Shown here in pieces: positions 10,634 through 39,479 of a DNA stretch of 64,000 nucleotides. This stretch comes from Isoetes taiwanensis (lineage: Eukaryota; Streptophyta; Lycopodiopsida; Isoetales; Isoetaceae), in contig JAJEKV010000050.1 in NCBI GenBank assembly GCA_021234155.1, forward strand, positions 10,347,162 to 10,411,161. Reading direction: 5' to 3'. Within the stretch, counting starts at the first letter, position 1. Every line of letters starts with the position of its first letter. The translations under genes were made by a program, and so were the position numbers. The notes under the pieces are model-generated. The model was given only the letters and a program-made list of their open reading frames with translations. It was not told the origin of the DNA and searched no databases.

Positions 10634-10656
10634 GCCTGTAAATTATATATGCTTTG

Positions 10657-10730
10657 GCTGGAGTAGCTCAGTTGGTTAGAGCGTGTGGTTGTTAACCACA
10701 AGGTCGGAGATTCAAGCCCTCCCTCTAGCG
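10657..10730 (+). tRNA. tRNA-Asn (GUU), variant
   Basis: A 74-nt cloverleaf with acceptor GCTGGAG/CTCTAGC and anticodon GTT. It differs from the array consensus by C32 to T and by G53 to A. The second change breaks the conserved G53-C61 pair and alters the B box, so activity is doubtful. First copy of the array. Confidence 0.8.
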
Positions 10731-11305
10731 AGCTCCTATTATTTGGAACGCATTCAATAATGCAAGGAATAGCATCAAGTTCAAGATGTTAAAGTACGTT
10801 ATAAGTCATACTATGTTTTTGGCTCAATTGGTTCAGTTATATTATGCTTTGGCTCAAGATGTAGCTTTCGAGTTACTTAGATTTTGGCTCAATTGGTTCA
10901 CATTAACCACAAGGCCAGGATAGATCCCTCGAGCTTCCCTCAAGCTCTTGTTAGTTAGAAGACATCACATAATGCAAAGGATAGAAATTATGTAATTTAA
11001 AGAGTCGTTGCACCAAACCTACCTCTAGCGAGCTCTTATTACTTAGAAGCCATACCATCATTACAATAGAAGTTATTTAATTTAAACAATATATTGGCAC
11101 ACCATGATCTAGAGAAAAACATTGGAAGTCATACTCTGTTTTGGATCCTACGATTTGAAAGGTATCCTATCATCCAAAGAATAGCATCAAGTTGCGTAAG
11201 TTACGAAATTTAAACATTTTGTGCACTCAAGATTTAAAAGCACACCATAACTCATAATGTGTTTTGGCTAGAGTAGCTCTGCTGGTTCAATTATGTTATG
11301 CTTTG

Positions 11306-11322
11306 GCTGGAGTAGCTCAGTT

Positions 11323-11355
<33 letters not shown>

Positions 11356-11379
11356 GAGGTTCAAGCCCTTCCTCTAGCG
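11306..11379 (+). tRNA. tRNA-Asn (GUU)
   Basis: Matches the array consensus except for one T-stem change that becomes a G-U pair. Both internal promoter boxes are intact. Likely functional. Confidence 0.9.
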
Positions 11380-11500
11380 AGCTCCTATTATTTAGAACGC
11401 ATCCAATAATGCAAAGAATAGCATCAAGTTCAAGACGTTAAAGCACGTTATAAGTCATACTATGTTTTTGGTGCAGTTGGTTCAATTATGTTATGCTTTG

Positions 11501-11574
11501 GCTGGAGTAGCTCAGTTGGTTAGAGCGTGTGGCTGTTAACCACAAGGCCGGAGGATCAAGCCCTCCCTCTAGCG
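11501..11574 (+). tRNA. tRNA-Asn (GUU), T-loop variant
   Basis: Full-length copy with GGCC in the variable region and T54 changed to A (GGATCAAGCC instead of GGTTCAAGCC). This damages the B box; possible pseudogene. Confidence 0.75.
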
Positions 11575-11679
11575 AGCTCTTATTAGTTAGAAGACATCAC
11601 ATAATGCAAAGGATCAAGTTCAAGTTAAAGTAATTTATAAGTCATACTATGTTTTTGTTTGGTTCAATGTTATGCTTTG

Positions 11680-11772
11680 GTTGGAGTAGCTCACTTGGTT
11701 AGAGAGCTCTTATTGGTTAGAAGCCATTGGTTGTTAACCACAAGGCCGGAGGATCAAGCCCTCCCTCTAGCG
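11680..11772 (+). pseudogene. tRNA-Asn pseudogene with internal insertion
   Basis: Starts GTTGGAGTAGCTCACTTGG and ends CCTCCCTCTAGCG. A piece of 3' flank (AGCTCTTATTGGTTAGAAGCC) is inserted between the D-arm and the anticodon arm, as expected from unequal exchange between neighbouring units. Confidence 0.8.
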
Positions 11773-12134
11773 AGCTCTTATTAGTTAGAAGACATCACAT
11801 AATGCAAAGGATAGAAGTTATGTAATTTAAACAGTCATTGCACCAAACCTACCTCTAGCGAGCTCTTATTACTTAGAAGCCATACCATCATTACGATAGA
11901 AGTTATTTAATTTAAACAATATATTGGCACACATGATCTAGAGAAAAACATTGGAAGTCATACTCTGTTTTGGATCCTACGATTTGAAAGATATCCTATC
12001 ATCCAAAGGATAGCATCAACTTGTGTAAGTTACAAAATTTAAACATTTTGTGCACTCAAGATTTAAAAGCACACCATAACTCATAATGTGTTTTGGCTAG
12101 AGTAGCTCTGCTGGTTCAATTATGTTATGCTTTG

Positions 12135-12151
12135 GCTGGAGTAGCTCAGTT

Positions 12152-12184
<33 letters not shown>

Positions 12185-12208
12185 GAGGTTCAAGCCCTCC
12201 CTCTAGCG
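12135..12208 (+). tRNA. tRNA-Asn (GUU), consensus copy
   Basis: Acceptor GCTGGAG/CTCTAGC with discriminator G, D-arm GCTC-AGTTGGTTA-GAGC, anticodon arm TGTGG-CTGTTAA-CCACA, T-arm GGAGG-TTCAAGC-CCTCC. All stems pair. No run of four T follows within about 100 nt. Confidence 0.95.
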
Positions 12209-12954
12209 AGCTCCTATTATTTAGAACGCATCCAATAATGCAAAGCATCAAGTTAAAGCACGTTATAAGTCATACTATGTTATTGGTCATTGGTTATGTT
12301 TTTGGCATCCAATAATGCATTGGAATAGCATACTGCTCAAGGATGTTAAATTTGAAAAGTATCCTATCATCCAAAGGATAGCATCCAAAGGATAGCAAAA
12401 TCTAGAGAAAAACATTGGAAGTCAGCTCTTATTACTTAGATAGAAGTAATGTAATTTAAACAGTCATTGCACCAAACCTACCTCTAGCGAGCTCTTATTA
12501 CTTAGAAGCCATACCATCATTACGATAGAAGTTATTTAATTTAAACAATATATTGGCACACATAATCTAGAGAAAAACATTGGAAGTCATACTGCAAAGG
12601 ATCCTACGATTTGAATTATGTAAACCTACCTCTAGCGAAAGAATTTAGAAGCCATACCATTATTACGATAGAAGTTATTTAATTTTATTACTTAGAAGCC
12701 ATACCATCATTACGATAGAAGTTATTTAATTTAAACAATATATTGGCACAACATGATCTAGAGAAAAACATTGGAAGTCATATTCTGTTTTGGATCCTAC
12801 TATTTGAAAGGTATCCTATCATCCAAAGGATAGCATCAAGTTGCATAAGTTACGAAATTTAAACATTTTGTGCACTCAAGATTTAAAAGCACACCATAAC
12901 TCATAATGTGTTTTGGCTAGAGTAGCTCTGCTGGTTCAATTATGTTATGCTTTG

Positions 12955-12971
12955 GCTGGAGTAGCTCAGTT

Positions 12972-13004
<33 letters not shown>

Positions 13005-13028
13005 GAGGTTCAAGCCCTCCCTCTAGCG
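12955..13028 (+). tRNA. tRNA-Asn (GUU), consensus copy
   Basis: Identical to the copy at 12135. It is preceded by the decayed 5'-half module GGCTAGAGTAGCTCTGCTGG and followed by AGCTCCTATTATTTAG. Confidence 0.95.
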
Positions 13029-13147
13029 AGCTCCTATTATTTAGAACGCATCCAATAATGCAAAGAATAACATCAAGTTCAAGACGTTAAAGCACGTTAT
13101 AAGTCATACTATGTTTTTGGCGCAGTTGGTTCAATTATGTTATGCTT

Positions 13148-13198
13148 TAGTAGCTTAGTTGGTTAGAGAGTGGGGCTGTTAACCACAAGGTCGGAGGA
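13148..13198 (+). pseudogene. truncated tRNA-Asn
   Basis: Lacks the acceptor 5' strand and everything after the T-stem: it breaks off at GGAGGA and joins DNA of the downstream flank (TAGCAGTTATG). Anticodon arm GGGG-CTGTTAA-CCAC is mutated. Confidence 0.8.
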
Positions 13199-13611
13199 TA
13201 GCAGTTATGTAATTTAAACAGTCATTGCACCAAACCTACCTCTAGAGAGCTCTTATTACTTAGAAGCCATACCATCATTACGATAGAAGTTATTTAATTT
13301 AAACAATATATTGGCACACATAATCTAGAGAAAAACATTGGAAGTCAGCTCTTATTACTTAGAAGCCATAGCATCATTACGATAGAAGTTATTTAATTTA
13401 AACAATATATTGGCACACATAATCTAGAGAAAAACATTGGAAGTCATACTCTGTTTTGGATCCTACGATTTGAAAAGTATCCTATCATCCAAAGGATAGC
13501 ATCAAGTTGCGAAATTTAAACATTTTGTGCACTCAAGATTTAAAAGCACACCATAACTCATAATGTGTTTTGGCTAGAGTAGCTCTGCTGGTTCAATTAT
13601 GTTATGCTTCG

Positions 13612-13628
13612 GCTGGAGTAGCTCAGTT

Positions 13629-13661
<33 letters not shown>

Positions 13662-13685
13662 GAGGTTCAAGCCCTCCCTCTAGCG
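13612..13685 (+). tRNA. tRNA-Asn (GUU), consensus copy
   Basis: Same 74 nt as the copy at 12135, in a different 3' context: ATTTGGAACGCATCC-type modules are repeated three times downstream. Confidence 0.95.
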
Positions 13686-13921
13686 AGCTCCTATTATTTG
13701 GAACGCATCCAATAATGCAAGGAATAGCATCAAGTTATTTGGAACGCATCCAATAATGCAAGGAATAATGAAGGAATAGCATCAAGTTATTTGAATAATC
13801 CAATAATGGGAATAGCATCAAGTTCAAGGCGTTAAAAATCATCCAAATAAGGATACTATGTTGTTGGATTCAAATGTTATGCTTGTTTGGAGTAAAACAT
13901 TGGTTAGAGGTTAGAAGTCAG

Positions 13922-13990
13922 GCTGGAGTAGCTTAGTTGGATAGAAGCGTGTGGCTAATTCACCACAAGGTCATTCAAGCCCTCCCTCTA
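13922..13990 (+). pseudogene. degenerate tRNA-Asn
   Basis: Begins GCTGGAGTAGCTTAGTTGG but has indels in the D-arm, anticodon loop (CTAATTCA) and T-arm, and lacks a proper acceptor 3' strand. Confidence 0.75.
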
Positions 13991-14148
13991 AAGCTCCTAT
14001 TATTTGGAACTCATCCAATAATGCAAGGAATAGCATCAAGTTATTTGGAACGCATCCAATAATGCAAGGAATAGCATCAAGTTCAAGGCGTTAAAAGCCG
14101 TTTATAAGTCATACTATGTTGTTGGGTTCACATTATGTTATGCTTTGG

Positions 14149-14265
14149 TTGGAGTAGCTCACATTGGAAGTCATGTGGCTTTTGGATCCTCGGTTGGTTA
14201 GAACAAACATTTGGTTGTTAACCTACAAGGTCTAGGTTCAAGCCCTCCCTCTAGCGATTCTTACT
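14149..14265 (+). pseudogene. rearranged tRNA-Asn
   Basis: The 5' half (GTTGGAGTAGCTCACATTGG) is followed by flank modules (GAAGTCATG, TTTTGGATCC), then a second partial D-arm and TTGGTTGTTAACC before CTCCCTCTAGCG. A mosaic of tRNA and flank pieces. Confidence 0.7.
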
Positions 14266-14601
14266 AGTTAGAAGACATCACATAATGCAAAGGATAGAAG
14301 TTATTTAATTTAAATAGTCGTTGCACCAAACCTACCTCTAGTGAGCTCTTATTACTTAGAAGCCATACCATCATTAAATAGAAGTTATTTAATTTAAACA
14401 ATATATTGGCAAAACATATTGAAGTCATATTCTGTTTTGGATCCTACTATTTGAAAGGTATCCTATCATCCAAAGGATAGCATCAAGTTGCATAAGTTAT
14501 TAAATTTAAACATTTTGTGCACTCAAGATTTAAAAGCACACCATAACTCATAATGTGTTTTGGCTAGAGTAGCTCTGCTAGTTCAATTATGTTATGCTTT
14601 G

Positions 14602-14675
14602 GCTGGAGTAGCTCAGTTGGTTAGAGCGTGGTCACATTAACCACAAGGTCGGAGGTTCAATCCCTCCCTCTAGCG
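14602..14675 (+). pseudogene. tRNA-Asn-like with altered anticodon arm
   Basis: Full length (74 nt) with normal acceptor, D and T arms. The 5' side of the anticodon arm reads TGGTC-ACATTAA, which breaks the stem and would place ATT at the anticodon position. Probably not functional. Confidence 0.75.
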
Positions 14676-14794
14676 AGCTCCTATTATTTAGAACGCATCC
14701 AATAATGCAAAGAATAACATCAAGTTCAAGACGTTAAAGCACGTTATAAGTCATACTATGTTTTTGGCGCAGTTGGTTCAATTATGTTATGCTT

Positions 14795-14874
14795 TAGTAG
14801 CTTAGTTGGTTAGAGAGTGGGGCTGTTAACCACAAGGTCGGAGGATCAAGCCCTCCCTCTAGCGATCTTTTATG
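14795..14874 (+). pseudogene. tRNA-Asn lacking the 5' acceptor strand
   Basis: Reads TAGTAGCTTAGTTGG in place of GCTGGAGTAGCTCAG, with GGGG in the anticodon stem and GGATCAAG in the T-arm. The same defective type recurs at 16471, 22749, 24471 and 39175, so this pseudogene form has itself been amplified. Confidence 0.8.
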
Positions 14875-15289
14875 AGTTAGAAGACATCACATAATGCAAA
14901 GGATAGCAGTTATGTAATTTAAGAGAGCTCTTATTACTTAGAAGCCATACCATCATTACGATAGAAGTTATTTAATTTAAACAATATATTGGCACACATA
15001 ATCTAGAGAAAAATATTGGAAGTCAGCTCTTATTACTTAGAAGGCATAGCATCATTACGATAGAAGTTATTTAATTTAAACAATATATTGGCACACATAA
15101 TCTAGAGAAAAACATTGGAAGTCATACTCTGTTTTGGATCCTACGATTTGAAAAGTATCCTATCATCCAAAGGATAGCATGAAGTTGCGAAATTTAAACA
15201 TTTTGTGCACTCAAGATTTAAAAGCACACCATAACTCATAATGTGTTTTGGCTAGAGTAGCTCTGCTGGTTCAATTATGTTATGCTTCG

Positions 15290-15306
15290 GCTGGAGTAGC
15301 TTAGTT

Positions 15307-15339
<33 letters not shown>

Positions 15340-15363
15340 GAGGTTCAAGCCCTCCCTCTAGCG
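15290..15363 (+). tRNA. tRNA-Asn (GUU)
   Basis: Consensus except C13 to T in the D-stem (GCTT), which keeps a G-U pair. Cloverleaf intact. Confidence 0.9.
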
Positions 15364-15600
15364 AGCTCCTATTATTTGGAACGCATCCAATAATGCAAGG
15401 AATAGCATCAAGTTATTTGGAACGCATCCAATAATGCAAGGAATAATGAAGGAATAGCATCAAGTTATTTGGAACGCATCCAATAATGCAAGGAATAGCA
15501 TCAAAGTTCAAGACGTTAAAGCACGTTATAAGTCATACTATGTTGTTGGTTCAGTTATGTTATGCTTTGGTTGGAGTAGCTCACTTGGTTAGAGCGTGTG

Positions 15601-15674
15601 GCTGGAGTAGCTTAGTTGGTTAGAGCGTGTGGCTGTTCACCACAAGGTCGGAGGTTCAAGCCCTCCCTCTAGCG
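15601..15674 (+). tRNA. tRNA-Asn (GUU), position 37 variant
   Basis: Full length with C13 to T and A37 to C (anticodon loop CTGTTCA). A purine is normally needed 3' of the anticodon, so function is doubtful. Directly preceded by an orphan 5' third of another copy (GTTGGAGTAGCTCACTTGG). Confidence 0.75.
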
Positions 15675-15858
15675 AGCTCCTATTATTTGGAACACATCCA
15701 ATAATGCAAGGAATAGCATCAAGTTATTTGGAACGCATCCAATAATGCAAGGAATAGCATCAAGTTCAAGACGTTAAAGCACGTTATAAGTCATACTATG
15801 TTGTTGGTTCAGTTATGTTATGCTTTGGTTGGAGTAGCTCACTTGGTTAGAGCGTGTG

Positions 15859-15932
15859 GCTGGAGTAGCTCAGTTGGTTAGAGCGTTTGGCTGTTAACCA
15901 CAAGGTCGGAGGTTCAAGCCCTCCCTCTAGCG
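15859..15932 (+). tRNA. tRNA-Asn (GUU)
   Basis: Full length with one change in the anticodon stem (TGTGG to TTTGG) that gives a mismatch. As at 15601, an orphan 5' third lies immediately upstream. Confidence 0.8.
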
Positions 15933-16280
15933 AGCTCTTACTAGTTAGAAGACATCACATAATGCAAAGGATAGAAGTTATGTAATTTAAATAGTCGTTG
16001 CACCAAACCTACCTCTAGTGAGCTCTTATTACTTAGAAGCCATACCATCATTACGATAGAAGTTATTTAATTTAAACAATATATTGGCACAACATATTGG
16101 AAGTCATATTCTGTTTTGGATCCTACTATTTGAAAGGTATCCTATCATCCAAAGGATAGCATCAAGTTGCATAAGTTACGAAATTTAAACATTTTGTGCA
16201 CTCAAGATTTAAAAGCACGCCATAACTCATAATGTGTTTTGGCTAGAGTAACTCTGCTGGTTCAATTATGTTATGCTTTG

Positions 16281-16297
16281 GCTGGAGTAGCTCAGTT

Positions 16298-16330
<33 letters not shown>

Positions 16331-16354
16331 GAGGTTCAAGCCCTCCCTCTAGGG
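16281..16354 (+). tRNA. tRNA-Asn (GUU), acceptor-end variant
   Basis: Consensus apart from C72 to G, which removes the first acceptor pair (ends CTCTAGGG). Confidence 0.8.
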
Positions 16355-16470
16355 AGCTCCTATTATTTAGAACGCATCCAATAATGCAAAGAATAACATC
16401 AAGTTCAAGACGTTAAAGCACGTTATAAGTCATACTATGTTTTTGGCGCAGTTAATTCAATTATGTCATG

Positions 16471-16543
16471 CTTTTGTAGCTTAGTTGGTTAGAGAGTGGG
16501 GCTGTTAACCACAAGGTCGGAGGATCAAGCCCTCCCTCTAGCG
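16471..16543 (+). pseudogene. tRNA-Asn lacking the 5' acceptor strand
   Basis: CTTTTGTAGCTTAGTTGG replaces the 5' end. GGGG anticodon stem and GGATCAAG T-arm as in the 14795 copy. Confidence 0.8.
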
Positions 16544-16834
16544 ATCTTTTATGAGTTAGAAGACATCACATAATGCAAAGGATAGCAGTTATGTAATTTA
16601 AACAGTCATTGCACCAAACCTACCTCTAGAGAGCTCTTATTACTTAGAAGCCATACCATCATTACGATAGAAGTTATTTAATTTAAACAATATATTGGCA
16701 CACATAATCTAGAGAAAAATATTGGAAGTCAGCTCTTATTACTTAGAAGCCATAGCATCATTACGATAGAAGTTATTTAATTTAAACAATATATTGGCAC
16801 ACATAACACTACAAGAGAATGCCTGTTTTGCGTC

Positions 16835-17125
16835 AGAAAAATCGTCAGATGGTCTTCACAAAACAGACAACTGCCCAGACCCTACTGGCTGACGATTTAC
16901 CTGACAAATTTTATCTGACGATGAAACGTCAAAAAAATCGTCAGAAAAATCGTCGAAAAAATCGTCAATTTTCTGACGATTGAGCGTCAGCGAAATCGTC
17001 AGGGTTCGTCAGAAAAAACGTCAAGAAAATCGTCAGAAAAATCGTCAGAAAAATGGTCAGAAAAATCGTCATGAAAATCGTCAAAAAAAAAGTAAAAGAA
17101 ATCGTCAAAAAATCGTCATAACGAT
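16835..17125. repeat. left subterminal motif array of the CACTA element
   Basis: At least a dozen copies of the ATCGTCAG/CTGACGAT word separated by A- or T-runs. The open frame here (16980-17171) is only the translation of this repeat. Confidence 0.85.
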
Positions 17126-20100
17126 TTTCACCAAATTTGTCAGGTTATTCATCTATGTACATTTTGTCTAGATTTGCATTTTGTTTGGAGTTTTGGATTT
17201 TGAAATTTGTATTGATTTGCAATATGTCTGCATTTTCAATTACAAAGCTTCTAATGCTGCTGAAGTTTAACATAAATTTAGGCTGCAAATTATGAAGAAA
17301 CAAGCGCATATATTTAAATGCAATCACAAGTCACTGTTACATGTACAATGCCAACAAGAATAATGTGGCAAGGTGCTCACTAACAGCTTGATTTCCTTGT
17401 TGCGATATGCTTGTTCTCTGAAAAATGAAAACATACAATATTATTGATTGCCCTGTATGTGACTACTAGTATACCTTAAAGGCCAGACTCATTTTATAAA
17501 TCATGAACCTAAAATTCAAAATAGGCATTGATATATAGATCAATTTAGAATGATTGTTTCTATCTTTTTACCTGCTGAGTGACATGCCACTTTAGCCAAG
17601 AAGGGAGACTTGAATTCTTCATTTGCCACTTGCTCCAGGTTTGTTGAAGGTAGCGCAGTCTGCAGCCCACAGTTCAGTGATGTTTAACATATAATTTCTT
17701 ACATATACAATTCAAGAAGTAGTAGAATACCTTGGCTGCTTATTAATTCTTCACTTGTCACTTGCTCCATAAGTCTAGACACATGCCAGATGCACTATTA
17801 ATTTCGTCTCCAATCCATTAACCGTCTTGATCCCAAATCTGTGGTTACTGTGTTTTTTCAACCATCTAGAAAAGACCTGTCATGGAGCATGTAGCAGTAA
17901 GCTTTTTCGTCATGACAAAGGCAAAAAGAAATTTTATGTTCAAATATAGACGGGGCAAATTGGGAATGCTGCTGACATAAAGGATGCATGTTAACGTGCT
18001 GTTTTAATTATAGACTTTACTTGAAAACGTATCACGCACATCAGCCAATAATAGATAAAGGAAATTAAATTCTATGGATGATGTTACCTCCTGCCTTGTT
18101 TATCAGAATCTCATGGAACCCCGAAAGATGTTCTATGCTTGGTACCCCATATGGAACCCCTCCTCTTTAAAAAAGAAACACTCAAAAATTTTTCAGACAG
18201 TTGCGGCAATGCTGCACAAAATGTCTTGCCTTTCCTCTCAAACAGAACCAACACATTTCCTCAGTGGGCCTCAGCTAGAAAACATATTTTACAATGTCAT
18301 ACCTTCCGATGACCGAATCTGATTCTACATCAAATGTTTGACATATCTACATGTAGTCTAGCTTGAAAATTGCTATATGAGTCTAAACAAAATCAAACAT
18401 TGTTGAACACGTAATAATACATGTACAATAATTTCTAGACAATAGTAAATAATATTTTACAAAGGGCTAGTATATGCATCTCCCAATGAAGAACTAAAGC
18501 AAAACGACGAACCAAAATGAAAACAGAGAAGCTAACCTGAAGCCCACTTCCAATCATTCTATTGACGGCATTGTTTCCACGATGCCTCTTCCAGTAACCT
18601 TAATACGAGCAGAATCCATGGATGAGCGAATTTGTCTATTGCGATGAGCCCCTTTCTACCCTCATTTACTGCACCAAGCCAAGGATCAGTGCGAACAAAA
18701 AGATTGAACCTGCAAATAATAACCTTTAAAAATCACTTGGGACATTCGTCATTTCATAGACACATTCTTAAGAGGCGGGAGAACTTGATCTTTGTCTTCC
18801 TCAAATAATAGAGCAACTCCGGCAAAAGGAAACCTCTACCACCGTACTTTTCAATTCCGTAAAATATTAAAAAACTAGAAAAACCTAAACATATGGCAAA
18901 TATCTTAGAACTTAATAAAGATCAGGTCTTGTAACCCTGCACATTTGATCCATCACTGCATATTCCAGCACAACATAAACAACTCGGAAAGCCTCAAATA
19001 CATGTTAGCATTCTAGTTTTGTACCTTAAGCCAGAGTTGCATCATATATTGCAGTTGCTCATGTGGCTCAGTTAGTAGTCTCTCTGTCAGACTCCGCAAG
19101 GATAAGTACAACTTTGAAGGAAAAAAACCTTCCGATATACGTTTCTCCAAGAGGATCTGCAGATGGAAGAGAATTAAAATTTAAAGAAAAATCTTCGAAT
19201 CTACACCTTCGTTATTCGCCCCCCCCCCTATCGGAAAACAGGCCGGAAACCAAGAATACTGCCGGAAATACTCAGATGCAACCAGAATACTCAGATTCAA
19301 CCAGAAACACACGAATCTACACCAGAAACCCACTGATTTAGCCAGAAATCCATGGATTGAACCAGAAACTACACTGTAACGAAAAAAAAAAGGAATGGAT
19401 CAACCCCAAAGAGGAACCCAAGCACCCTAAAATCCGTCCTCCGATTCTAAATCGACTCCCCTGCACCCTAAAATCCGTCCTGAAACCTGTGCATCGATTC
19501 CCCCTGCACCCTAAATCCGTCCTGAAACCTGCAATTCGATTCTCCTGCACCCAAGTCTGAAACCAAAAATAGGGGCTAAAAATGATTCCGACTGATTTCC
19601 GATGGGGGGGGCCGAATAACGAAGTCTACCCGGATCTGCAGATGGAAGAGAATTAAAATTTAAAGAAAAATCTTCAGAGTCCAGGGCTAATATATTTTCG
19701 TATATACCTCATATTCGCAGCAAGATGTGAAGAAAGATATGAAAGTTATCTTTAAATGCCGATTTATAGCACGCAGAGACATAATCTCCACCAAATTTAA
19801 ACTGCTGAAAACCCAAATAGATCTGTCGGCCATGCTAAAAGCAGCGACCAATATTTCCACAAACTATCTTAGTCATAAGGACGGATTTATCTCTGCATGT
19901 GCATATGCAGCCCCAAACACAGTAGCCGACCAGAAAACTATCAAGGCAATTTGCCCTAAATTTTTCTCATAAACGTATGCCCTAAAGTCTTATGCACCTT
20001 ATCTCTAACCCATACCTTATTTTTTTCTTAAACCATCGCATTAAAAACCATTGGATTTGTTAAATACGAATAAACACATAAGTACGAGCAAATATGAGCA

Positions 20101-21090
20101 TCTGAATGGCCCAGAGCTTCAACTTGAAAAACTCCGGTGAAGCAACGGCGGAATGGGGTGCACACAAATTCGCAACAAAATCCGAAAATAAGAAACAACA
20201 GCAGACTAGCCTACATGTAGCGCAAATCCGGCTATAGCTTCCTGCCTCCGCCATACCTCGCCGTTGCCGTGCTTAATCCCTTCGCTTCCAGCTCACACTT
20301 TTCTTCCTTACCGATTTGGATCCGGCTGCTTGTTTTTTCTGTTCTTTTATGGACCTTATAGGAATAATCTCTTCTGATAACTACAACCATAGCTACACAG
20401 AAGATTCATTGGCCGGCAAATATACATCAGATAACTTGGCCATATTAAGGTTCCCACTAGACGCCTTTGCCATATTAAGGTTTGTATTCATTGTAATCTT
20501 GGCCATATTAAGATTCGGATTCATTGTAATCTTTTGCAATTTTAAAGGCAAGTTTAAGTTGTTGAGGCTCATTTTCTACATGCATAGTGTAGAACTTTAA
20601 CAGGCTTTATGCCAAAATTGTAATAAGCCCTAAGGCAACTAATATGCCATAAGCATTTATTCAAATCATTCCCATGGAATACACCAAACTTGTGGATGCT
20701 ATCCCATAAGTATGGCTTGGTTTATGCAATATTGCTTAAAAAAATCTTTAGAAATTAATAATTTTCAATGAATTGAAGATTCAAATAGAGTATCTATTGA
20801 TTCAAAGTTTAAAGAGATCATCATAATTATTATCAACCTACACTTGTTCATAAGGTTCATAAAATCAAAAGGTTAATTACTAGATAACTAATCTAGAAAG
20901 GTTTTCAAATGGAGGTTACATTGAAAAAAACCCTAACCAAAGCCAGCCAAAAGGTTATGCTTTTCAACCAAATAACTTAATCAAACTTGATTTAATTCTA
21001 CACGATGGAAGAGATCTATAAGAGAGCTTTCCAATGCAACAAATTTCATTCAAAACAGGCTTTGGGATCAATTGTTATGATTAAAAAAAA
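17126..21090. other. interior of the CACTA element
   Basis: AT-rich filler without a long frame. Several stretches look like non-coding pieces of captured host DNA. At 20410-20540 the word GCCATATTAAGGTT occurs several times as a local tandem repeat. A nested 418-bp element lies at 19207-19624. Confidence 0.5.
19207..19624. mobile_element. nested 418-bp TIR element with C/G-run ends
   Basis: The ends are inverted repeats: CTTCGTTATTCG followed by a run of C and ATCGG-like bases on the left, the complement ending GGCCGAATAACGAAG on the right. The word TCTAC occurs beside both ends as a possible target duplication. Internal GTCCTGAAACCTG / CTGCACCCTAAA repeats fill 19430-19560. A 44-bp direct repeat (starting GGATCTGCAGATGGAAGAG) brackets the whole, near 19155 and 19632. 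Confidence 0.6.
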
Positions 21091-21094
21091 AAAA

Positions 21095-21365
21095 AAAAAT
21101 TTTTCTGACGTTTTTCCTGACGATTTTTCTGACGCAACGTTTTGACGTTTTTTCTGACGAAAAGTCTGACGTTACACCTGACGTAAAATTCTGATGATTT
21201 CTCTGACGATAGTTTTGACGTTTAATTTCTAACGATTTGTCTGACGTTTAGTCCTGACGATATATCGTCAGAAATTTAATCGTCAGGATGTTCGTCAGGA
21301 TATTCGTCAGTACATAACCATTCAATTTACCTGACGATTTTTCTGACGTGAAACCCTCATTCTCT
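21095..21365. repeat. right subterminal motif array of the CACTA element
   Basis: Dense CTGACGTTTT/CTGACGATTT words, mostly in the opposite orientation to the left array, ending with the inverted repeat at 21358-21372. Confidence 0.85.
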
Positions 21366-21564
21366 TGTAGTGTAATCTAGAGAAAAACATTGGAAGTCAT
21401 ACTCTGTTTTGGATCCTACGATTTGAAAAGTATCCTATCATCCAAAGGATAGCATCAAGTTGCGAAATTTAAACATTTTGTGCACTCAAGATTTAAAAGC
21501 ACACCATAACTCATAATGTGTTTTGGCTAGAGTAGCTCTGCTGGTTCAATTATGTTATGCTTCG

Positions 21565-21583
21565 GCTGGAGTAGCTTAGTTGC

Positions 21584-21614
<31 letters not shown>

Positions 21615-21638
21615 GAGGTTCAAGCCCTCCCTCTAGCG
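21565..21638 (+). tRNA. tRNA-Asn (GUU), D-loop variant
   Basis: C13 to T, and the conserved GG of the D-loop is GC (AGTTGCTTA), which weakens the A box and the D-loop/T-loop contact. Confidence 0.75.
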
Positions 21639-21875
21639 AGCTCCTATTATTTGGAACGCATCCAATAATGCAAGGAATAGCATCAAGTTATTTGGAACAC
21701 ATCCAATAATGCAAGGAATAATGCAAGGAATAGCATCAAGTTATTTGGAACGCATCCAATAATGCAAGGAATAGCATCAAGTTCAAGACGTTAAAGCACG
21801 TTATAAGTCATACTATGTTGTTGGTTCAGTTATGTTATGCTTTGGTTGGAGTAGCTCACTTGGTTAGAGCATGTG

Positions 21876-21892
21876 GCTGGAGTAGCTTAGTT

Positions 21893-21925
<33 letters not shown>

Positions 21926-21949
21926 GAGGTTCAAGCCCTCCCTCTAGCG
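21876..21949 (+). tRNA. tRNA-Asn (GUU)
   Basis: Consensus with C13 to T only. Preceded directly by an orphan 5' third of another copy. Confidence 0.9.
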
Positions 21950-22133
21950 AGCTCCTATTATTTGGAACACATCCAATAATGCAAGGAATAGCATCAAGTT
22001 ATTTGGAACGCATCCAATAATGCAAGGAATAGCATCAAGTTCAAGACGTTAAAGCACGTTATAAGTCATACTATGTTGTTGGTTCAGTTATGTTATGCTT
22101 TGGTTGGAGTAGCTCACTTGGTTAGAGCGTGTG

Positions 22134-22150
22134 GCTGGAGTAGCTTAGTT

Positions 22151-22183
<33 letters not shown>

Positions 22184-22207
22184 GAGGTTCAAGCCCTCCC
22201 TCTAGCG
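22134..22207 (+). tRNA. tRNA-Asn (GUU)
   Basis: Same sequence as the copy at 21876, 258 bp downstream in a near-identical unit. This pair shows the most recent tandem duplication in the array. Confidence 0.9.
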
Positions 22208-22555
22208 AGCTCTTACTAGTTAGAAGACATCACATAATGCAAAGGATAGAAGTTATGTAATTTAAATAGTCGTTGCACCAAACCTACCTCTAGTGAGCTC
22301 TTATTACTTAGAAGCCATACCATCATTACGATAGAAGTTATTTAATTTAAACAATATATTGGCACAACATATTGGAAGTCATATTCTGTTTTGGATCCTA
22401 CTATTTGAAAGGTATCCTATCATCCAAAGGATAGCATCAAGTTGCATAAGTTACGAAATTTAAACATTTTGTGCACTCAAGATTTAAAAGCACGCCATAA
22501 CTCATAATGTGTTTTGGCTAGAGTAAGTCTGCTGGTTCAATTATGTTATGCTTTG

Positions 22556-22629
22556 GTTGGAGTAGCTCAGTTGGTTAGAGCGTGTGGCTGTTAACCACAA
22601 GGCCGGAGGTTCAAGCCCTCCCTCTAGCG
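22556..22629 (+). tRNA. tRNA-Asn (GUU)
   Basis: C2 to T gives a wobble pair in the acceptor stem; the variable region is GGCC. Otherwise consensus. Confidence 0.87.
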
Positions 22630-22748
22630 AGGTCCTATTATTTAGAACGCATCCAATAATGCAAAGAATAGCATCAAGTTCAAGACGTTAAAGCGCGTTA
22701 TAAGTCATACTATGTTTTTGGCGCAGTTGGTTCAATTATGTTATGCTT

Positions 22749-22761
22749 TAGTAGCTCAGTT

Positions 22762-22794
<33 letters not shown>

Positions 22795-22818
22795 GTGGAT
22801 TAAGCCCTCCCTCTAGCG
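22749..22818 (+). pseudogene. tRNA-Asn lacking the 5' acceptor strand
   Basis: TAGTAGCTCAG start and GGTGGATTAAGCC in the T-arm. It is followed by AGCTTTTATTAG, one of the few copies with a TTTT run close behind. Confidence 0.8.
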
Positions 22819-23180
22819 AGCTTTTATTAGTTAGAAGACATCACATAATGCAAAGGATAGAAGTTATGTAATTTAAACAGTCATTGCACCAAACCTACCT
22901 CTAGCGAGCTCTTATTACTTAGAAGCCATACCATCATTACGATAGAAGTTATTTAATTTAAACAATATATTGGCACACATAATCTAGAGAAAAACATTGG
23001 AAGTCATACTCTGTTTTGGATCCTACGATTTGAAAAGTATCCTATCATCCAAAGGATAGCATCAAGTTGCATAAGTTACGAAATTTAAACATTTTGTGCA
23101 CTCAAGATTTAAAAGCACACCATAACTCATAATGTGTCTTGGCTAGAGTAGCTCTGCTGGTTCAATTATGTTATGCTTTG

Positions 23181-23197
23181 GCTGGAGTAGCTCAGTT

Positions 23198-23230
<33 letters not shown>

Positions 23231-23254
23231 GAGGTTCAAGCCCTCCCTCTAGCG
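23181..23254 (+). tRNA. tRNA-Asn (GUU), consensus copy
   Basis: Identical to the copies at 12135, 12955 and 13612 although it lies on the far side of the CACTA element, so these four have been homogenised or retained under constraint. Confidence 0.95.
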
Positions 23255-23423
23255 AGCTCCTATTATTTAGAACGCATCCAATAATGCAAAGAATAGCATC
23301 AAGTTCAAGACGTTAAAGCACGTTATAAGTCATACTATGTTTTTGGCGCAGAAAAACATTGGAAGTCATACCATGGAATAAAATAACGGCTAAGGTTAGC
23401 CCCAAAAACATTGGAAGTCATAC

Positions 23424-24089
23424 CATGGAATAAAATAACGGCTAAGGTTAGCCAAATGGCTATTTTGTAGCAGTTTTGCCAAGAAAAACGGCTAAAGTAA
23501 ACGGAAAAAATGCCCCAAAAAAAGAAAATTTTAGCCCAATTTTTTTGCCGCCCAAGTGAGTTTTTAGGTTGAATAGCCAAACCTTTACCTTCAGACATAT
23601 CCATCAGGACATCGATTAGCTAAACCTAAGATAGAGTGGGCTTGGAAAAATGGATAGATTAGCCCGAAATCCAACACCAATGTATGTACTAACTTTAAGA
23701 TATTTCAAATAGGGTTTATATTTTTCTTTCTTTTTTCCACTTTCTTTTTTGTTCCAAGTACAAAATTGAAGCATTAGAGGAAAAGGAACAATGTAGTCCC
23801 ATTTTTTTAGGTTTTTGAACCTGTTCATATATGTTTGTGTCTTGATTTATGTATTTACAATAAATTCAATGTTTTTGCCAAAATGCTTAGAATTTTTCAA
23901 ATTAATATCGCGTGATGGCTAATATTTGCCTTTCCATTTTGTGAAAGTTTAGCCAAAAGCAAGAAAGTGTGATGGAGAAAAACCATTTAGTTTAGCCAAG
24001 TGTTAGAAACTTCTAGCCCCAATTTGAATGTAGTTTAGCTAAACCTATTTTGGCTACACTAAAATATAGGAGTAGTAATTTATTCCATG
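23424..24089. mobile_element. hAT-like non-autonomous element, 666 bp
   Basis: Ends are the 11-bp inverted repeat CATGGAATAAA/TTTATTCCATG, flanked on both sides by the 8-bp direct repeat AGTCATAC (23416-23423 and 24090-24097). Deleting one copy with the element restores the array word GAAGTCATACTCTG. The 8-bp duplication fits the hAT superfamily. Internal TTAGCCAAA and GGCTAAGG words repeat near both ends. No transposase frame. Confidence 0.85.
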
Positions 24090-24268
24090 AGTCATACTCT
24101 GTTTTGGATCCTACGATTTGAAAAGTATCCTATCATCCAAAGGATAGCATCAAGTTGCATAAGTTACGAAATTTAAACATTTTGTGCACTCAAGATTTAA
24201 AAGCACACCATAACTCATAATGTGTTTTGGCTAGAGTAGCTCTGCTGGTTCAATTATGTTATGCTTTG

Positions 24269-24344
24269 GCTTGGAGTAGCTCGATTGGTTAGAGCGTGTG
24301 GTACATTAACCACAATGCCAGAGGTTCAAGCCCTCCCTCTAGCG
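24269..24344 (+). pseudogene. tRNA-Asn pseudogene
   Basis: An extra T in the acceptor (GCTTGGAG), GATT in the D-loop and an eight-base anticodon loop (TACATTAA) remove the GTT anticodon. Confidence 0.8.
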
Positions 24345-24470
24345 AGCTCCTATTATTTATTAGAACGCATCCAATAATGCAAAGAATAGCATCAAGTTCA
24401 AGACGTTAAAGTTAAAGCACGTTATAAGTCATACTATGTTTTTGGCACAGTTGGTTCAATTATATTATGC

Positions 24471-24547
24471 TTTAGTAGCTCAGTTGGTTAGAGCGTAGCG
24501 TGTGGTTGTTAACCACAAGGTCGGAGGATCAAGCCCTCCCTCTAGCA
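24471..24547 (+). pseudogene. tRNA-Asn lacking the 5' acceptor strand
   Basis: TAGTAGCTCAG start, duplicated GCGTA in GAGCGTAGCGTGTGG, and GGATCAAGCC in the T-arm. Confidence 0.8.
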
Positions 24548-24817
24548 AGCTCTTATTAGTTAGAAGACATCACATAATGCAAAGGATAGAAGTTATATAA
24601 TTTAAACAGTCATTGCACCAAACCTACCTCTAGCGAGCTCTTATTACTTAGATAGAAGATATTTAATTTAAACAATATATTGACACAACATGATCTAGAG
24701 AAAAACATTGGAAGTCATATTCTGTTTTGGATCCTACTATTTGAAAGGTATCTTATCATCCAAAGGATAGCATCAAGTTGCATAAGTTACGAAATTTAAA
24801 CATTTTGTGCACTCAAG

Positions 24818-24863
24818 ACGCTCTAACCAACTGAGCTACTCGAGCCAAAGCCCTCCCTCGAGC
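24818..24863 (-). pseudogene. inverted 5' half of tRNA-Asn joined to a + strand 3' end
   Basis: Positions 24818-24850 are the reverse complement of the tRNA 5' half plus its upstream CTTTGG (it reads GAGTAGCTCAGTTGGTTAG on the - strand). They are joined directly to the + strand acceptor end CCCTCCCTCGAGCG. This is a micro-inversion with one breakpoint near the anticodon arm. Confidence 0.8.
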
Positions 24864-25227
24864 GAGCTCTTATTAGTTAGAAGACATCACATAATGCAAA
24901 GGATACAAGTTATGTAATTTAAATAGTCGTTGCACCAAACCTACCTCTAGCGAGGTCTTATTACTTAGAAGCCATACCATCATTACAATAGAAGTTATTT
25001 AATTTAAACAATATATTGGCACACCATGATCTAGAGAAAAACATTGGAAGTCATACTCTGTTTTGGATCCTACAATTTGAAAGGTATCCTATCATCCAAA
25101 GGATAGCATCAAATTGCATAAGTTACGAAATTTAAACATTTTGTGCACTCAAGCTTTAAAAGCACACCATAACTCATAATGTGTTTTGGCTAGAGTAGTT
25201 CTACTGGTTCATTTATGTTATGCTTTG

Positions 25228-25301
25228 GCTGGAGTAGCTCAATTGGTTAGAGAGTGTGGCTGTTAACCACAAGGCCGGAGGTTCAAGCCCTCCCTCTAGC
25301 G
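25228..25301 (+). tRNA. tRNA-Asn (GUU), D-arm variant
   Basis: CAATTGG in the D-loop and GAGA for GAGC in the D-stem give one mismatch; anticodon and T arms are normal. Confidence 0.78.
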
Positions 25302-25422
25302 AGCTCCTATTATTTGGAATGCATCCAATAATGCAAAGAATAGCATCAAGTTCAAGACGTTAAAGCACGTTATAAGTCATACTATGTTTTTGGCACAGTT
25401 GGTTCAATTATGTTATGCCTTG

Positions 25423-25496
25423 GCTGGAGTAGCTCAGTTGGTTAGAGCGTGTGGCTGTTAACCACAAGGCTGGAGGTTTAAGCCCTCCCTCTAGCG
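25423..25496 (+). tRNA. tRNA-Asn (GUU), T-loop variant
   Basis: C56 to T (GGTTTAAGCC) removes the C56 that contacts G19, and lies in the B box. The rest is consensus. Last full copy before the Helitron. Confidence 0.75.
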
Positions 25497-25806
25497 AGGT
25501 TTTATTAGTTAGAAGACATCACATAATGCAAAGGATAGAAGTTATATAATTTAAACAGTCATTGCACCAAACCTACCTCTAGCGAGCTCTTATTACTTAG
25601 AAGCCATACCATCATTACGATAGAAGTTATTTAATTTAAACAATATATTGGCACACATAATCTAGAGAAAAACATTGGAAGTCATGCTCTGTTTTGGATC
25701 CTACAATTTGAAAAGTATCCTATCATCCAAAGTGTAAGTTATGAAATTGAAACATTTTGTGCACTCAAGACTTAAAAGCACACCATAACTCATAACTAGT
25801 AATGGT

Positions 25807-31884: not shown

Positions 31885-32080
31885 GCCTAGGTGGCATGCA
31901 CGAGCCTAGGTGCCAACTTGGCATGTAGGAACCACCTTGGCATGTTTGAGCCTAGGTGGCATGTTTGAGCCACCTTGGCATGTTGGAGCCCACATGGCAT
32001 GTTGGAGCCTATGTGGCATGTTGGAGCCACGTGGCATGTTTGAGCCACCTTGGCATGTTTGAGCACGTTGGAGCCTAGGT
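31885..32080 (-). repeat. small minisatellite block, reverse orientation
   Basis: About ten monomers of the same 19-bp family (GGCATGTTTGAGCCTAGGT type). Confidence 0.9.
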
Positions 32081-32439
32081 TTGATAGGGTTTACGTTGCA
32101 GGGATGCTCAGATGACCCGGAGGGCCCCGAGGGATCGGCGTGGAATACCCGTCTTTGGATTACCCTCATGGCCTTTGGAGGCGAGCCAAATTTCCGGTCG
32201 GCATACCTTTGGAGACTCCCTTCACAAGCCCCTTTCCGGTGAAGGGGAGTGCGGAAAAAGCATCTTTGCGGGGGGATTGACCCCATCTCAGGGCATGGTC
32301 CCCGAGCATACCACGAGAGAACTCCATGCAAAGTTTGGATGTGTTAGTCTCCGTCTTGGCCTTTCGAGATGTAAACCCTACCAAACCCTAGGGTTTGGTA
32401 GGATTTGATAAGGATGCTCCTCACGATCAAGAGGGCCGT

Positions 32440-35150: not shown

Positions 35151-35393
35151 GCAAAGATGATGGCGCATACGCAAGAGAAAAAATGCACCAGCATATATAC
35201 CTTTTCGGAGACTCCCTTCACAAGAAAGGGGCGTAGGTCGAGGTGCCTACCCTGTTTGCCGGACATCCAAGGTCCATGTCACCATCATCTAGCCATGTCA
35301 CCTAAAAATTTGCCAACATCACCCATCGAAAAGACCAAAGATGGACATCTTTGGTTTTTGGCCTAGTCAAAACTTGACCTTTGCTTACTTGGC

Positions 35394-37099: not shown

Positions 37100-37485
37100 C
37101 ATCACATGTAGCAAATCAAGTACTATGTCCTACCACTATAAAGACCCTTGATATGGAAGGATAGGACATGTAGAGAATCAAGTACTCTTTCCTACTTCTA
37201 TAAAGACATGTGAGAATAGAAGTATTACACATGTCGTAATTCATGTATTCTTTCCTACAATGCCTTGGCAAATAAAGTACTACATCCTACTACTATAAAG
37301 ACATGTGACATGGAAGCATATGACATGTAGAGAATCGAAAGTATTCTTTTCCTCCGACTTCTATAAAGACATGTGACAATAGAAGTATTACACATGTCGT
37401 AATTCATGTATTCTTTCCTACAATGCCTTAGCAAATAAAGTACTCATGTCCTACTACTATAAAGACATGTGAAAGCCATGGAATA
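37100..37485. repeat. tandem repeat of about 180 bp
   Basis: Roughly two copies of a unit holding CTATAAAGACATGTGA, ATAGAAGTATTACACATGTC and CTTTCCTACAATGCCTT, with further partial units. Confidence 0.8.
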
Positions 37486-37712
37486 GTACCACATCAAAAG
37501 AAGGACACCATTTTAGACAGTTCCCTTTGCCGGCGTTTTCAAATGCATGTACGTATCTTTGGATGACAATTAAATGAGGACCGGGGATCTCCTTCCAGAT
37601 GTTGGAGGAGGGCTAGAAATGCAAGAGCCTAACAAAAGAACTTGACTTAAGTTATACAATGCTAACGGCGTAACTTCTAGATGAACCAAAGAAGTGAATT
37701 CACCCGGATCGC

Positions 37713-38034
37713 CTTTCCAAGTCCCATCTCATCCGCAAGAATGGCTTGAAGAAAAAAGAAAATCCCATGTCGAACGTTCTAAGGCAAAGACCAATTTGGA
37801 ACAACACAAAAACATCGAGATTGAGGTGCCAAAGAGCTTCATAAGATGACAAATACCTCCCTCGCAACATTCTTCCGTAGGCTCTACAATTCCCCGTAAT
37901 TCATTTCCTGAACATCTCTTTTGAACCAAAGCGCTAAAATTTTCGCCGCCTTGGACCCTAAATATTACATTGCTTTTTATCTCTTCAATATTTAGAAGAA
38001 GATTGATTCGAAAGCCATGGCAATAAAAGAACAT
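37713..38034 (-). pseudogene. captured fragment of a SNF2-family ATPase gene
   Basis: On the - strand 37751-37713 reads LQAILADEMGLGK, the Walker A box (motif I) of SNF2 chromatin-remodelling ATPases. It is preceded by a pyrimidine-rich TTTTCTTTTTTCTTCAAG that looks like an intron acceptor. The upstream frame (to 38034) has no recognised motif, and motif Ia is not found downstream. The fragment lies near the Helitron's 5' end, a usual place for captured exons. Confidence 0.5.
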
Positions 38035-38335
38035 TGGTTTGCCAGTGTCTTGTAGTCTCTAGGCATCTCTAGCCACCTAATCAAAAGAAGATTTTGCGCA
38101 ACACCCAAAGCCATGGAGATGCCCTAAATCCCTAAATCGCATAGAGCGAGAAGAGAAAGGATATTTCGGCCAAAGCCGAAAAATTTTAATCAAATCTTGG
38201 CATTCGAAAGTTTTAGGGTTTTATGCCGAATAGACATACACACTAAAAACTTTATAATATAGGATGTGTTTTGGCAAGAGTAGCTCATCCAAAGGATACC
38301 GTTCAATTATGTTATGTTTAAATAACTCATAATGA

Positions 38336-38402
38336 AGTAGCTCGGTTGGTTAGGCGTGTGGCTGGTAACCACAAGGCGGAGGTTCAAGCCCTTCCTCTAA
38401 CG
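38336..38402 (+). pseudogene. tRNA-Asn pseudogene
   Basis: GAAGTAGCTCGGTTGG start, single-base losses in the D-arm and variable region, and anticodon loop CTGGTAA (GGT in place of GTT). Confidence 0.75.
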
Positions 38403-38541
38403 AGCTCCTATTATTTGGAATGCATCCAATAATGCAAGGAATAGCATCAAGTTACGTTAAAGCACGTTATAAGTCATACTATGTTGTTGGTTGAGTTATG
38501 TTATGCTTTGGCTGGAGTAGCTCACTTGGTTAGAGCGTGTG

Positions 38542-38558
38542 GCTGGAGTAGCTTAGTT

Positions 38559-38591
<33 letters not shown>

Positions 38592-38620
38592 GAGGTTCAA
38601 GCCCAGCCCTCCCTCTAGCG
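38542..38620 (+). pseudogene. tRNA-Asn with a 5-nt T-arm insertion
   Basis: Consensus up to the T-loop, then CAGCC is duplicated (AAGCCCAGCCCTCC), giving 79 nt. Followed by AGCTTTTATTAG. Confidence 0.8.
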
Positions 38621-38980
38621 AGCTTTTATTAGTTAGAAGACATCACATAATGCAAAGGATAGAAGTTATGTAATTTAAATAGTCGTTGCACCAAACCTAC
38701 CTCTAGTGAGCTCTTATTACTTAGAAGCCATACCATCATTACGATAGAAGTTATTTAATTTAAACAATATATTGGCACAACATGATCTAGAGAAAAACAT
38801 TGGAAGTCATATTCTGTTTTGGATCCTACTAGAAAGGTATCCTATCATCCAAAGGATAGCATCAAGTTGCATAAGTTACGAAATTTAAACATTTTGTGCA
38901 CTCAAGATTTAAAAGCACACCATAACTCATAATGTGTTTTGGCTAGAGTAGCTCTACCGGTTCAATTATGTTATGCTTTG

Positions 38981-39056
38981 GCTGGAGTAGCTGGGTTTGG
39001 TTAGAGCGTGTGGTCATTTAACCACAAGGCCGGAGGTTCAAGCCCTCCCTCTAGCG
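38981..39056 (+). pseudogene. tRNA-Asn pseudogene
   Basis: D-arm reads CTGGGTTTGG, and the anticodon loop (GGTCATTTAACC) lacks GTT. Confidence 0.8.
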
Positions 39057-39174
39057 AGCTCCTATTATTTAGAACACATCCAATAATGCAAAGAATAGCA
39101 TCAAGTTCAAGACGTTAAAGCACGTTATAAGTCATACTATGTTTTTGCGCAGTTGGTTCAATTATGTTATGCTT

Positions 39175-39187
39175 TAGTAGCTCAATT

Positions 39188-39220
<33 letters not shown>

Positions 39221-39244
39221 GAGGATCAAGCCCTCCCTCTAGCG
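39175..39244 (+). pseudogene. tRNA-Asn lacking the 5' acceptor strand
   Basis: TAGTAGCTCAATTGG start and GGATCAAGCC T-arm; the anticodon arm is normal. Confidence 0.8.
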
Positions 39245-39479
39245 AGCTCTTATTAGTTAGAAGACATCACATAATGCAAAGGATAGAAGTTATGTAATTT
39301 AAACAGTCATTGCACCAAACCTACCTCTAGCGAGCTCTTATTACTTAGAAGCCATACCATCATTACGATAGAAAACAAGGTGACCTAGCAAACGCACTAA
39401 TGACCTGTGGTGCAATTGCAGATTCCTTTTTCAAAAACACGTAAATTCGGCATTTTAGCCATTTTAAAAAAAAAAACAA

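Follow-up and report, generated by a model that had tools for sequence, protein, structure and literature searches.

Introduction

Clusters of transfer RNA (tRNA) genes, or tDNAs, are defined either by density, i.e., at least three tDNAs per kb (PMC11700998), or by neighbours lying within 1 kb of one another (PMC2888827; PMC12652284). For 50 species, the reported clusters range in size from two to 110 genes, and identical tandem genes among them cover 20 amino acids (PMC12652284). In plants, homogeneous tandem clusters have been described for tRNA-Pro (at least three and up to 10 genes) and for tRNA-Ile of maize (28 genes) (PMC11700998). Arabidopsis contains the SYY cluster of tRNA-Tyr and tRNA-Ser, a tandem array of one gene set in which intact genes and pseudogenes lie near heterochromatin (PMC12308677), as well as a tRNA-Cys cluster built of short 0.4-kb units with one tRNA each, with a pseudogene at its edge and transposon marks (PMC10701932). 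Very large or tandem tDNA clusters are also found in the non-plants Entamoeba, zebrafish, stickleback, and Nematostella (PMC2888827). Here we describe a tandem array of tRNA-Asn(GUU) units in a stretch of 64,000 nucleotides (hereafter the window) that forms part of contig C1057 (GenBank JAJEKV010000050.1, positions 10,347,162 to 10,411,161) in the 1.66-Gb genome of Isoetes taiwanensis. This genome yielded 49 AUX/IAA domain matches, compared with none in 14 prokaryote controls, as expected of a land plant.

Like these clusters, the Isoetes array repeats one kind of tDNA unit in tandem, but it differs from each of them. The SYY cluster carries other isotypes, and root tips have been found to contain its transcripts (PMC12308677), whereas the Asn array lacks a close downstream run of four T residues (T4) at nearly all copies. 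The reference tRNA-Cys cluster comprises four genes, and its termination signals are present (PMC10701932). The Pro and Ile clusters differ in isotype, and section 3.4 of PMC11700998 mentions Pro, Tyr-Ser, and Ile but does not mention Asn. No large tRNA-Asn array or tRNA satellite in plants appeared in the part of the matches covered by our literature searches; small Asn clusters may well be in the supplement of PMC12652284. Plant clusters of Pro, Tyr/Ser, Cys, and Ile are known, and what is new here is the Asn isotype, the missing terminators, and the little or no constraint on the tRNA. Our preferred reading, to which we assign a probability of about 0.75, is that the array is a satellite family that arose from a tRNA-Asn(GUU) gene and its flanks rather than a working supply of tRNA.

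The window contains a head-to-tail array of tRNA-Asn(GUU) units

ARAGORN predicted 21 tRNA genes in the window, all on the plus strand between positions 10657 and 39245: 19 were Asn(GUU), one (at 14602, with an altered anticodon arm) was called as Met, and one was of undetermined isotype. The Rfam tRNA model RF00005 gave 27 matches of 30.9-71.8 bits, 18 of them of at least 60 bits (Table 1). A first-pass annotation, made from the letters of the window, had described an array of many full-length tRNA-Asn copies, and these predictions confirm it; the four copies that it took to be identical (12135, 12955, 13612, and 23181) are so letter for letter. Its placing of the copies on one strand holds for all 27 Rfam matches, but not for every fragment: a 20-nt motif from the tRNA 5′ end, searched with up to three mismatches, occurs 34 times in the window against 0.01 expected, and one occurrence (24819) is on the minus strand.

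The units are arranged head to tail, are mostly 0.2-1.0 kb long, and are broken up by other DNA. A 207-nt family with its start at the tRNA comprises 19 copies, with start-to-start spacings within blocks of 195-990 nt and one step of 2047 nt. Three Asn matches fall within 643 nt at two places (15290-15932 and 21565-22207), a density at which plant tDNA clusters are recognized, and the ARAGORN genes repeat one isotype on one strand, as in such clusters. Blocks of 1.6-1.9 kb recur in the window at 91-98% identity, which indicates that several units were copied together; positions 15098-16731 and 21373-23006 are 98.2% identical across 1635 nt, and 13244-15100 and 14922-16806 are 93% identical. 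The repeat had also been proposed to extend to 63 kb. Array-like DNA does reach that far, in the form of a short relic and a decayed block, but no tRNA in either piece attains the Rfam threshold.

Nearly all array copies lack a close downstream terminator

We compared the array copies with nine canonical single-copy tRNA-Asn genes, caught in the genome by a pattern scan. The array sample comprised 141 tRNA matches in fetched array DNA (one plastid-like match was excluded), of which 58 scored at least 60 bits. T4 was found within 25 nt downstream of one of these 58 copies, whereas all nine single-copy genes carried it at 3-13 nt (Fisher p = 2e-10, a nominal value since the copies share ancestry). 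Two of the 58 had T4 within 50 nt; the first T4 lay at 51-100 nt in 29 copies, at 101-200 nt in 14, and at 201-400 nt in three, and for the remaining 10 no T4 was present across 400 nt or as far as the locus extended. Across all array matches, T4 was within 25 nt in 8 of 141; for comparison, three segments sampled from the array contained a T4 in 13% of their 25-nt stretches. The T run just downstream, which would be expected of an array of genes functional for RNA polymerase III (Pol III), is absent from nearly all copies.

The flanks of the two groups also differed in composition. The 50 nt upstream were 64% AT in the 58 array copies and 77% AT in the nine single-copy genes. CAA occurred within 10 nt upstream in none of the 58 array copies compared with three of the nine single genes, and within 50 nt in 37 and seven, respectively. 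The near 3′ flank is mostly TCTT, TCCT, or TTCT in both unit types of the array (distinguished below), and flanks resembling AGCTTTTATTAG are seen at a small number of copies as well as in the decayed block at 61.6 kb.

These results bear on tRNA gene counts, which in large plant genomes are often taken as translation capacity: 58 of the array copies have the scores of good tRNA-Asn genes, yet 57 of these have no terminator close by, and drift in the family is much the same as in its flanks. The presence of a terminator would offer a simple filter for such counts. The first-pass annotation had linked inert satellite DNA to nearly all copies scoring as pseudogenes. This is not what we observe; judged by Rfam scores rather than tRNAscan-SE, 18 of the 27 window matches and 58 of the 141 array matches reach 60 bits.

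tRNA bodies and flanks have diverged to a similar extent

Copies were sampled blind to the tRNA by means of a 64-nt spacer anchor that ends 37 nt upstream of it, yielding 111 anchors, 109 of which had enough sequence and 76 of which were near complete. Divergence from the consensus in these 76 copies was 6.1% for the tRNA, 5.0% for the 5′ flank, and 6.7% and 5.8% for two 3′ segments (5.9% for the flanks overall); the 2.2% of the anchor itself is low partly because the copies were selected by it. The tRNA/flank ratio was 1.03, with a bootstrap range of 0.85-1.25 that was obtained by resampling copies and is optimistic given their kinship. Overall, the tRNA body shows no excess of constraint over its flanks, whereas such an excess would be expected in a functional array. 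By locus, tRNA divergence was 3.5% on C710 (n = 12; 5′ flank 4.1%, near 3′ flank 7.9%), 4.5% on C1057 (n = 26), 5.0% on C136 (n = 6), 5.7% at others (n = 5), 9.0% on C343 (n = 20), and 10.3% in the middle of C1057 (n = 7). Of 101 distinct changes in the tRNA, 57 fell at paired sites against 57.3 expected, and the anticodon was changed in 22 of the 76 copies.

Changes of the C-to-T type were found at 11.8% in CHG, 9.1% in CG, and 3.9% in CHH contexts, figures that rest on few independent sites; the other transitions stood at 1.6% (A>G) and 2.0% (T>C). More frequent C-to-T change at CG and CHG is the pattern expected from heterochromatic methylation in plants, and the array is most likely methylated heterochromatin, to judge from this pattern.

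Since nearly all copies lack a T run where Pol III would stop, and since bodies and flanks mutate alike, the intact bodies do not appear to be kept for use. That many still look intact would most likely reflect recent amplification. The suggestion that the array is a real source of tRNA-Asn finds no support in these data; it most likely makes little or no tRNA-Asn, and dispersed genes would supply it.

Evidence bearing on residual function

Several observations weigh against the satellite reading. The first run of five T residues (T5) lies at 51-100 nt in 27 of the 58 copies, and Pol III could stop late at this T5, with the trailer then trimmed. Genes outside arrays do not all carry a nearby T4: in four tRNA-Ile(UAU) copies outside the large arrays, the distance is 17, 33, 33, and 71 nt, and the contrast in terminators seen for Asn does not transfer cleanly to Ile (see below). 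Angiosperm tRNA genes carry poly(T) in only 67-73% of cases, where 50 nt downstream were searched (PMC11700998). The nine controls, in addition, comprise just those Asn genes that fell within the mismatch limit of the pattern scan. The stems provide a further signal, with 106 broken pairs compared with 131 in shuffles (standard deviation 7.3; all of 1000 shuffles gave higher counts), 105 compared with 129 in unique sequences, and 152 copy-weighted changes at paired sites compared with 200. The deficit of broken pairs is seen on C1057 (25 vs 36), in its middle part (15 vs 21), and on C136 (3 vs 7.3), whereas counts are near the shuffle level on C343 (46 vs 48) and C710 (11 vs 12). It probably stems from a small number of common variants at unpaired positions, although the tRNA body may be under weak constraint. 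Finally, in the anchored unit type (76 copies), the B box diverged by 1.4% compared with 7.1% for the rest of the body.

The late T5 and the shortage of broken pairs would both fit a conditional source of tRNA, silent in most tissues and switched on in some cells as the Arabidopsis SYY cluster is, whose transcripts would end at T5 and have their trailers trimmed by tRNase Z. The 58 high-scoring matches and five copies letter-identical to single-copy genes speak for such a source, and SYY itself, although methylated, is active in cells of the root cap (PMC12308677). The near-complete lack of T4 within 25 nt, bodies that are no more conserved than flanks, and the altered anticodons in the anchored copies all speak against it, and we consider it unlikely.

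The low divergence of the B box could alternatively mean that the array is a series of TFIIIC sites in which the B box is kept rather than the tRNA, with the satellite serving as a TFIIIC-bound component of chromatin or replication. Just 0.5% of random 11-column sets diverged as little, distinct changes per column numbered 0.82 in the B box compared with 1.47 elsewhere, no B-box variant was common to four or more copies, and the consensus B box was present in 104 of the 141 array matches. However, singletons per column were as frequent in the B box as elsewhere (0.55 vs 0.53), and the A box was not conserved (6.2%). A second sample, comprising 96 of 113 copies, represented the other unit type and took the alternative 3′ flank as its anchor; there the B box diverged by 4.8% compared with 7.6% and was intact in 59 of 96. 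Of the 109 copies of the first sample, 43 matched the consensus patterns of both the A and the B box, which a functional tRNA gene array would carry intact, and 88 matched that of the B box. With an unclear result in the second unit type and no depletion of singletons, we dropped B-box conservation as a main finding and retain it as a lead; an array of TFIIIC sites strikes us as most improbable.

The unit has multiplied at a few loci

A genome scan with a 30-nt tRNA core (up to two mismatches) gave 88 matches and none with the reversed control. Four contigs hold 69 of them, i.e., 46 on C1057, 15 on C710, and four each on C136 and C343. A 30-nt spacer motif (up to three mismatches) matched 98 times, 65 of these letter-perfect, again with none in the control. 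The main arrays, which locate the unit in the genome, lie on C1057 (10.357-10.386 and 10.484-10.541 Mb), C710 (20-42 kb), C136 (188-210 kb), and C343 (1-39 kb). The copy number is a lower bound because C343 begins and C136 ends within the array. Smaller sets are found on C1027, C1028, C362, and C1026, and single relics of the unit on C1039, C1067, C1095, C1035, and C996. C710 and C136 might represent the two haplotypes of a single region; loci L006 and L007 are 95-97% identical across 3.3-3.9 kb.

On C343, only two of 29 tRNA matches reach 60 bits, yet the spacer of the best candidates there is 95-98% identical to the query, and the unit thus multiplies regardless of the state of its tRNA. Some array stretches are nearly devoid of tRNA matches: L030 and L032 have none and L031 has one, each in 4.2-4.8 kb of array-like DNA. 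A homogenised unit in tandem, at few loci, and multiplied with or without an intact gene is what characterizes a satellite. The homogenising satellite that the first-pass annotation had considered is borne out by the recurrent blocks, the occurrence of the unit on several contigs, and bodies no more conserved than flanks.

On our preferred reading, a tRNA-Asn gene with its flanks would have founded the unit, and units would have multiplied head to tail, multi-unit blocks included, most likely through unequal exchange, with which the repeated 1.6-1.9-kb blocks are consistent. Later transposon insertions would have broken up the array, and single or few units would have reached other contigs. 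We sought a founder among the nine single-copy genes by blastn and found none, as matches to the array extended at most 24 nt beyond the body.

The scattered units invite another explanation, in which a mobile element captured the tRNA gene (a Helitron-like capture, of the kind proposed for the tRNA-Cys cluster of Arabidopsis) and the arrays are a by-product of its replication. Single or few units on the five relic contigs, C1026, and others would be expected of such an element. Two relics also have in common a 63-nt foreign stretch adjoining the unit (L034 2069-2131 and L035 2181-2242; 92% identical), perhaps from a common carrier element. However, shared unit ends and target duplications have not been established, no systematic search for them having been made, and most core matches lie on the four array contigs; a mobile origin of the arrays seems to us very unlikely.

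tRNA-derived short interspersed elements (SINEs) resemble the array unit in having a tRNA body with A and B boxes. They differ from it in that the array is mostly tandem, and a SINE was rejected on this ground and on the concentration, rather than dispersal, of the core matches. A retro-copied mature tRNA was likewise rejected, since CCA follows the tRNA body in none of the 141 array matches.

Two further tRNA array families are present in the genome

A genome scan with the tRNA model gave 63 scored candidates and led to two further array families. The first consists of tRNA-Ile(UAU), with 64 core matches on C1101, C1018, C1021, C1074, and others; its arrays lie at 1-18 and 111-178 kb of C1101 and at 5.02-5.05 Mb of C1018 (L036, L037, L042-L046), and some copies are identical. 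In the second, tRNA-Arg(UCU) alternates with tRNA-Thr(AGU). There are 291 Arg core matches genome-wide, and among the matches listed, arrays are found on C526 (50-91 kb), C1066 (5.98-6.13 Mb), C1079, C638, and others (L047, L048, L051, L052). Most Thr copies of L051 and L052 score below the Arg copies.

In two fetched Arg/Thr stretches, T4 was within 25 nt of none of 23 Arg and one of 11 Thr copies. Among the other array copies of at least 60 bits, it was within 25 nt in five of 25 (C1101, four of eight at 17-18 nt; C1079, one of 12 at 23 nt; C1066, none of two; C1074, none of two; C1018, none of one) and within 15 nt in none. For Ile and Arg/Thr array copies pooled, T4 was within 15 nt in one of 59. 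One of the four Ile copies outside large arrays had T4 within 25 nt; of these four, the copy on C334 is accompanied by another match at a distance of 2.6 kb, and those on C323 and C1094 have flanks in common. In the Arg units (17 of 21 anchors), divergence was 1.1% for the Arg body, 1.6% for the preceding DNA, and 2.8% for the following DNA, values too small to judge constraint.

Three array families in one genome provide a testable system for the passage from tRNA gene to satellite. Asn, Ile(UAU), and Arg(UCU)/Thr genes might independently have become satellites that lack a close terminator while their boxes persist, and terminator-less sites of TFIIIC and Pol III may themselves drive tandem amplification, for instance through fork stalling or read-through across units. 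Such a common route appears to us quite unlikely; were it true, loss of the terminator would be what makes a tRNA gene a satellite.

Other features of the window and the array loci

Table 1. Array copies, array blocks, and adjoining elements in the window (Rfam RF00005 scores for tRNA copies)
Feature	Position	Strand	Score (bits)	Remarks
tRNA-Asn copy	10657..10730	+	65.2	
tRNA-Asn copy	11306..11379	+	70.2	
tRNA-Asn copy	11501..11574	+	68.5	B box GGATC
tRNA-Asn copy	12135..12208	+	71.8	same sequence as the C1033 and C1061 single-copy genes
tRNA-Asn copy	12955..13028	+	71.8	same sequence as 12135 copy
tRNA-Asn copy	13612..13685	+	71.8	same sequence as 12135 copy
Copy with altered anticodon arm	14602..14675	+	48.4	ARAGORN: Met
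Damaged copy	14791..14864	+	43.8	TTTT at +4
tRNA-Asn copy	15290..15363	+	70.5	
tRNA-Asn copy	15601..15674	+	63.9	
tRNA-Asn copy	15859..15932	+	65	
tRNA-Asn copy	16281..16354	+	63.6	
Damaged copy	16470..16543	+	40.8	TTTT at +4
tRNA-Asn copy	21565..21638	+	67	
tRNA-Asn copy	21876..21949	+	70.5	
tRNA-Asn copy	22134..22207	+	70.5	
tRNA-Asn copy	22556..22629	+	67	
Damaged copy	22745..22818	+	52.8	TTTT at +4
tRNA-Asn copy	23181..23254	+	71.8	same sequence as 12135 copy
Damaged copy	24270..24344	+	30.9	
Damaged copy	24469..24547	+	45.5	
tRNA-Asn copy	25228..25301	+	64.5	
tRNA-Asn copy	25423..25496	+	69.1	off-consensus B box GGTTTAAGCC; sole case of T4 within 25 nt among the 58 array copies of at least 60 bits
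Damaged copy	38336..38396	+	35.4	
Damaged copy	38546..38615	+	46.1	TTTT at +9 from end of match
Damaged copy	38981..39056	+	44.7	
tRNA-Asn copy	39171..39244	+	60.2	B box GGATC
LINE-like (long interspersed nuclear element) RVT_1 fragment	10196..10633	-	29.2	left neighbour of block 1; just below Pfam cut-off of 29.6
Array block 1	10640..16806	+		head-to-tail tRNA-Asn units and relics
CACTA-type transposon	16807..21372	.		4.6 kb, inserted in array; perfect 15-nt terminal inverted repeats CACTACAAGAGAATG
Array block 2	21373..25795	+		
Array block 3	38264..39373	+		
Short array relic	51597..52012	+		blastn to array blocks
Decayed array block	61567..63116	+		no tRNA at Rfam threshold; 3′ flank AGCTTTTACTAG in two places

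The element that separates the first two array blocks is one that we take to belong to the CACTA superfamily from its terminal motif. It is flanked by a target duplication, TAA, at 16804-16806 and 21373-21375, and the corresponding empty site, cacataatctagag, is present in another unit near 12558. Blocks 2 and 3 are separated by non-array DNA (approximately 25.8-38.26 kb), which includes, at 28705-37010, long runs of a 19-bp tandem motif (TGGCATGTTGGAGCC-like) in both orientations with a guanine-cytosine content near 50%. The decayed array block adjoins a purine-rich repeat of AAAGGA type at 63250-63962.

Outside the window, an organelle-like insert is present on C343 (L008 8977-10000), with the beginning of a 23S rRNA of bacterial type and a match to a group II intron. 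Near the left end of the window, at 5903-6355, an open frame contains an fn3_6 domain (75.7 bits), as in the C-terminus of plant subtilases.

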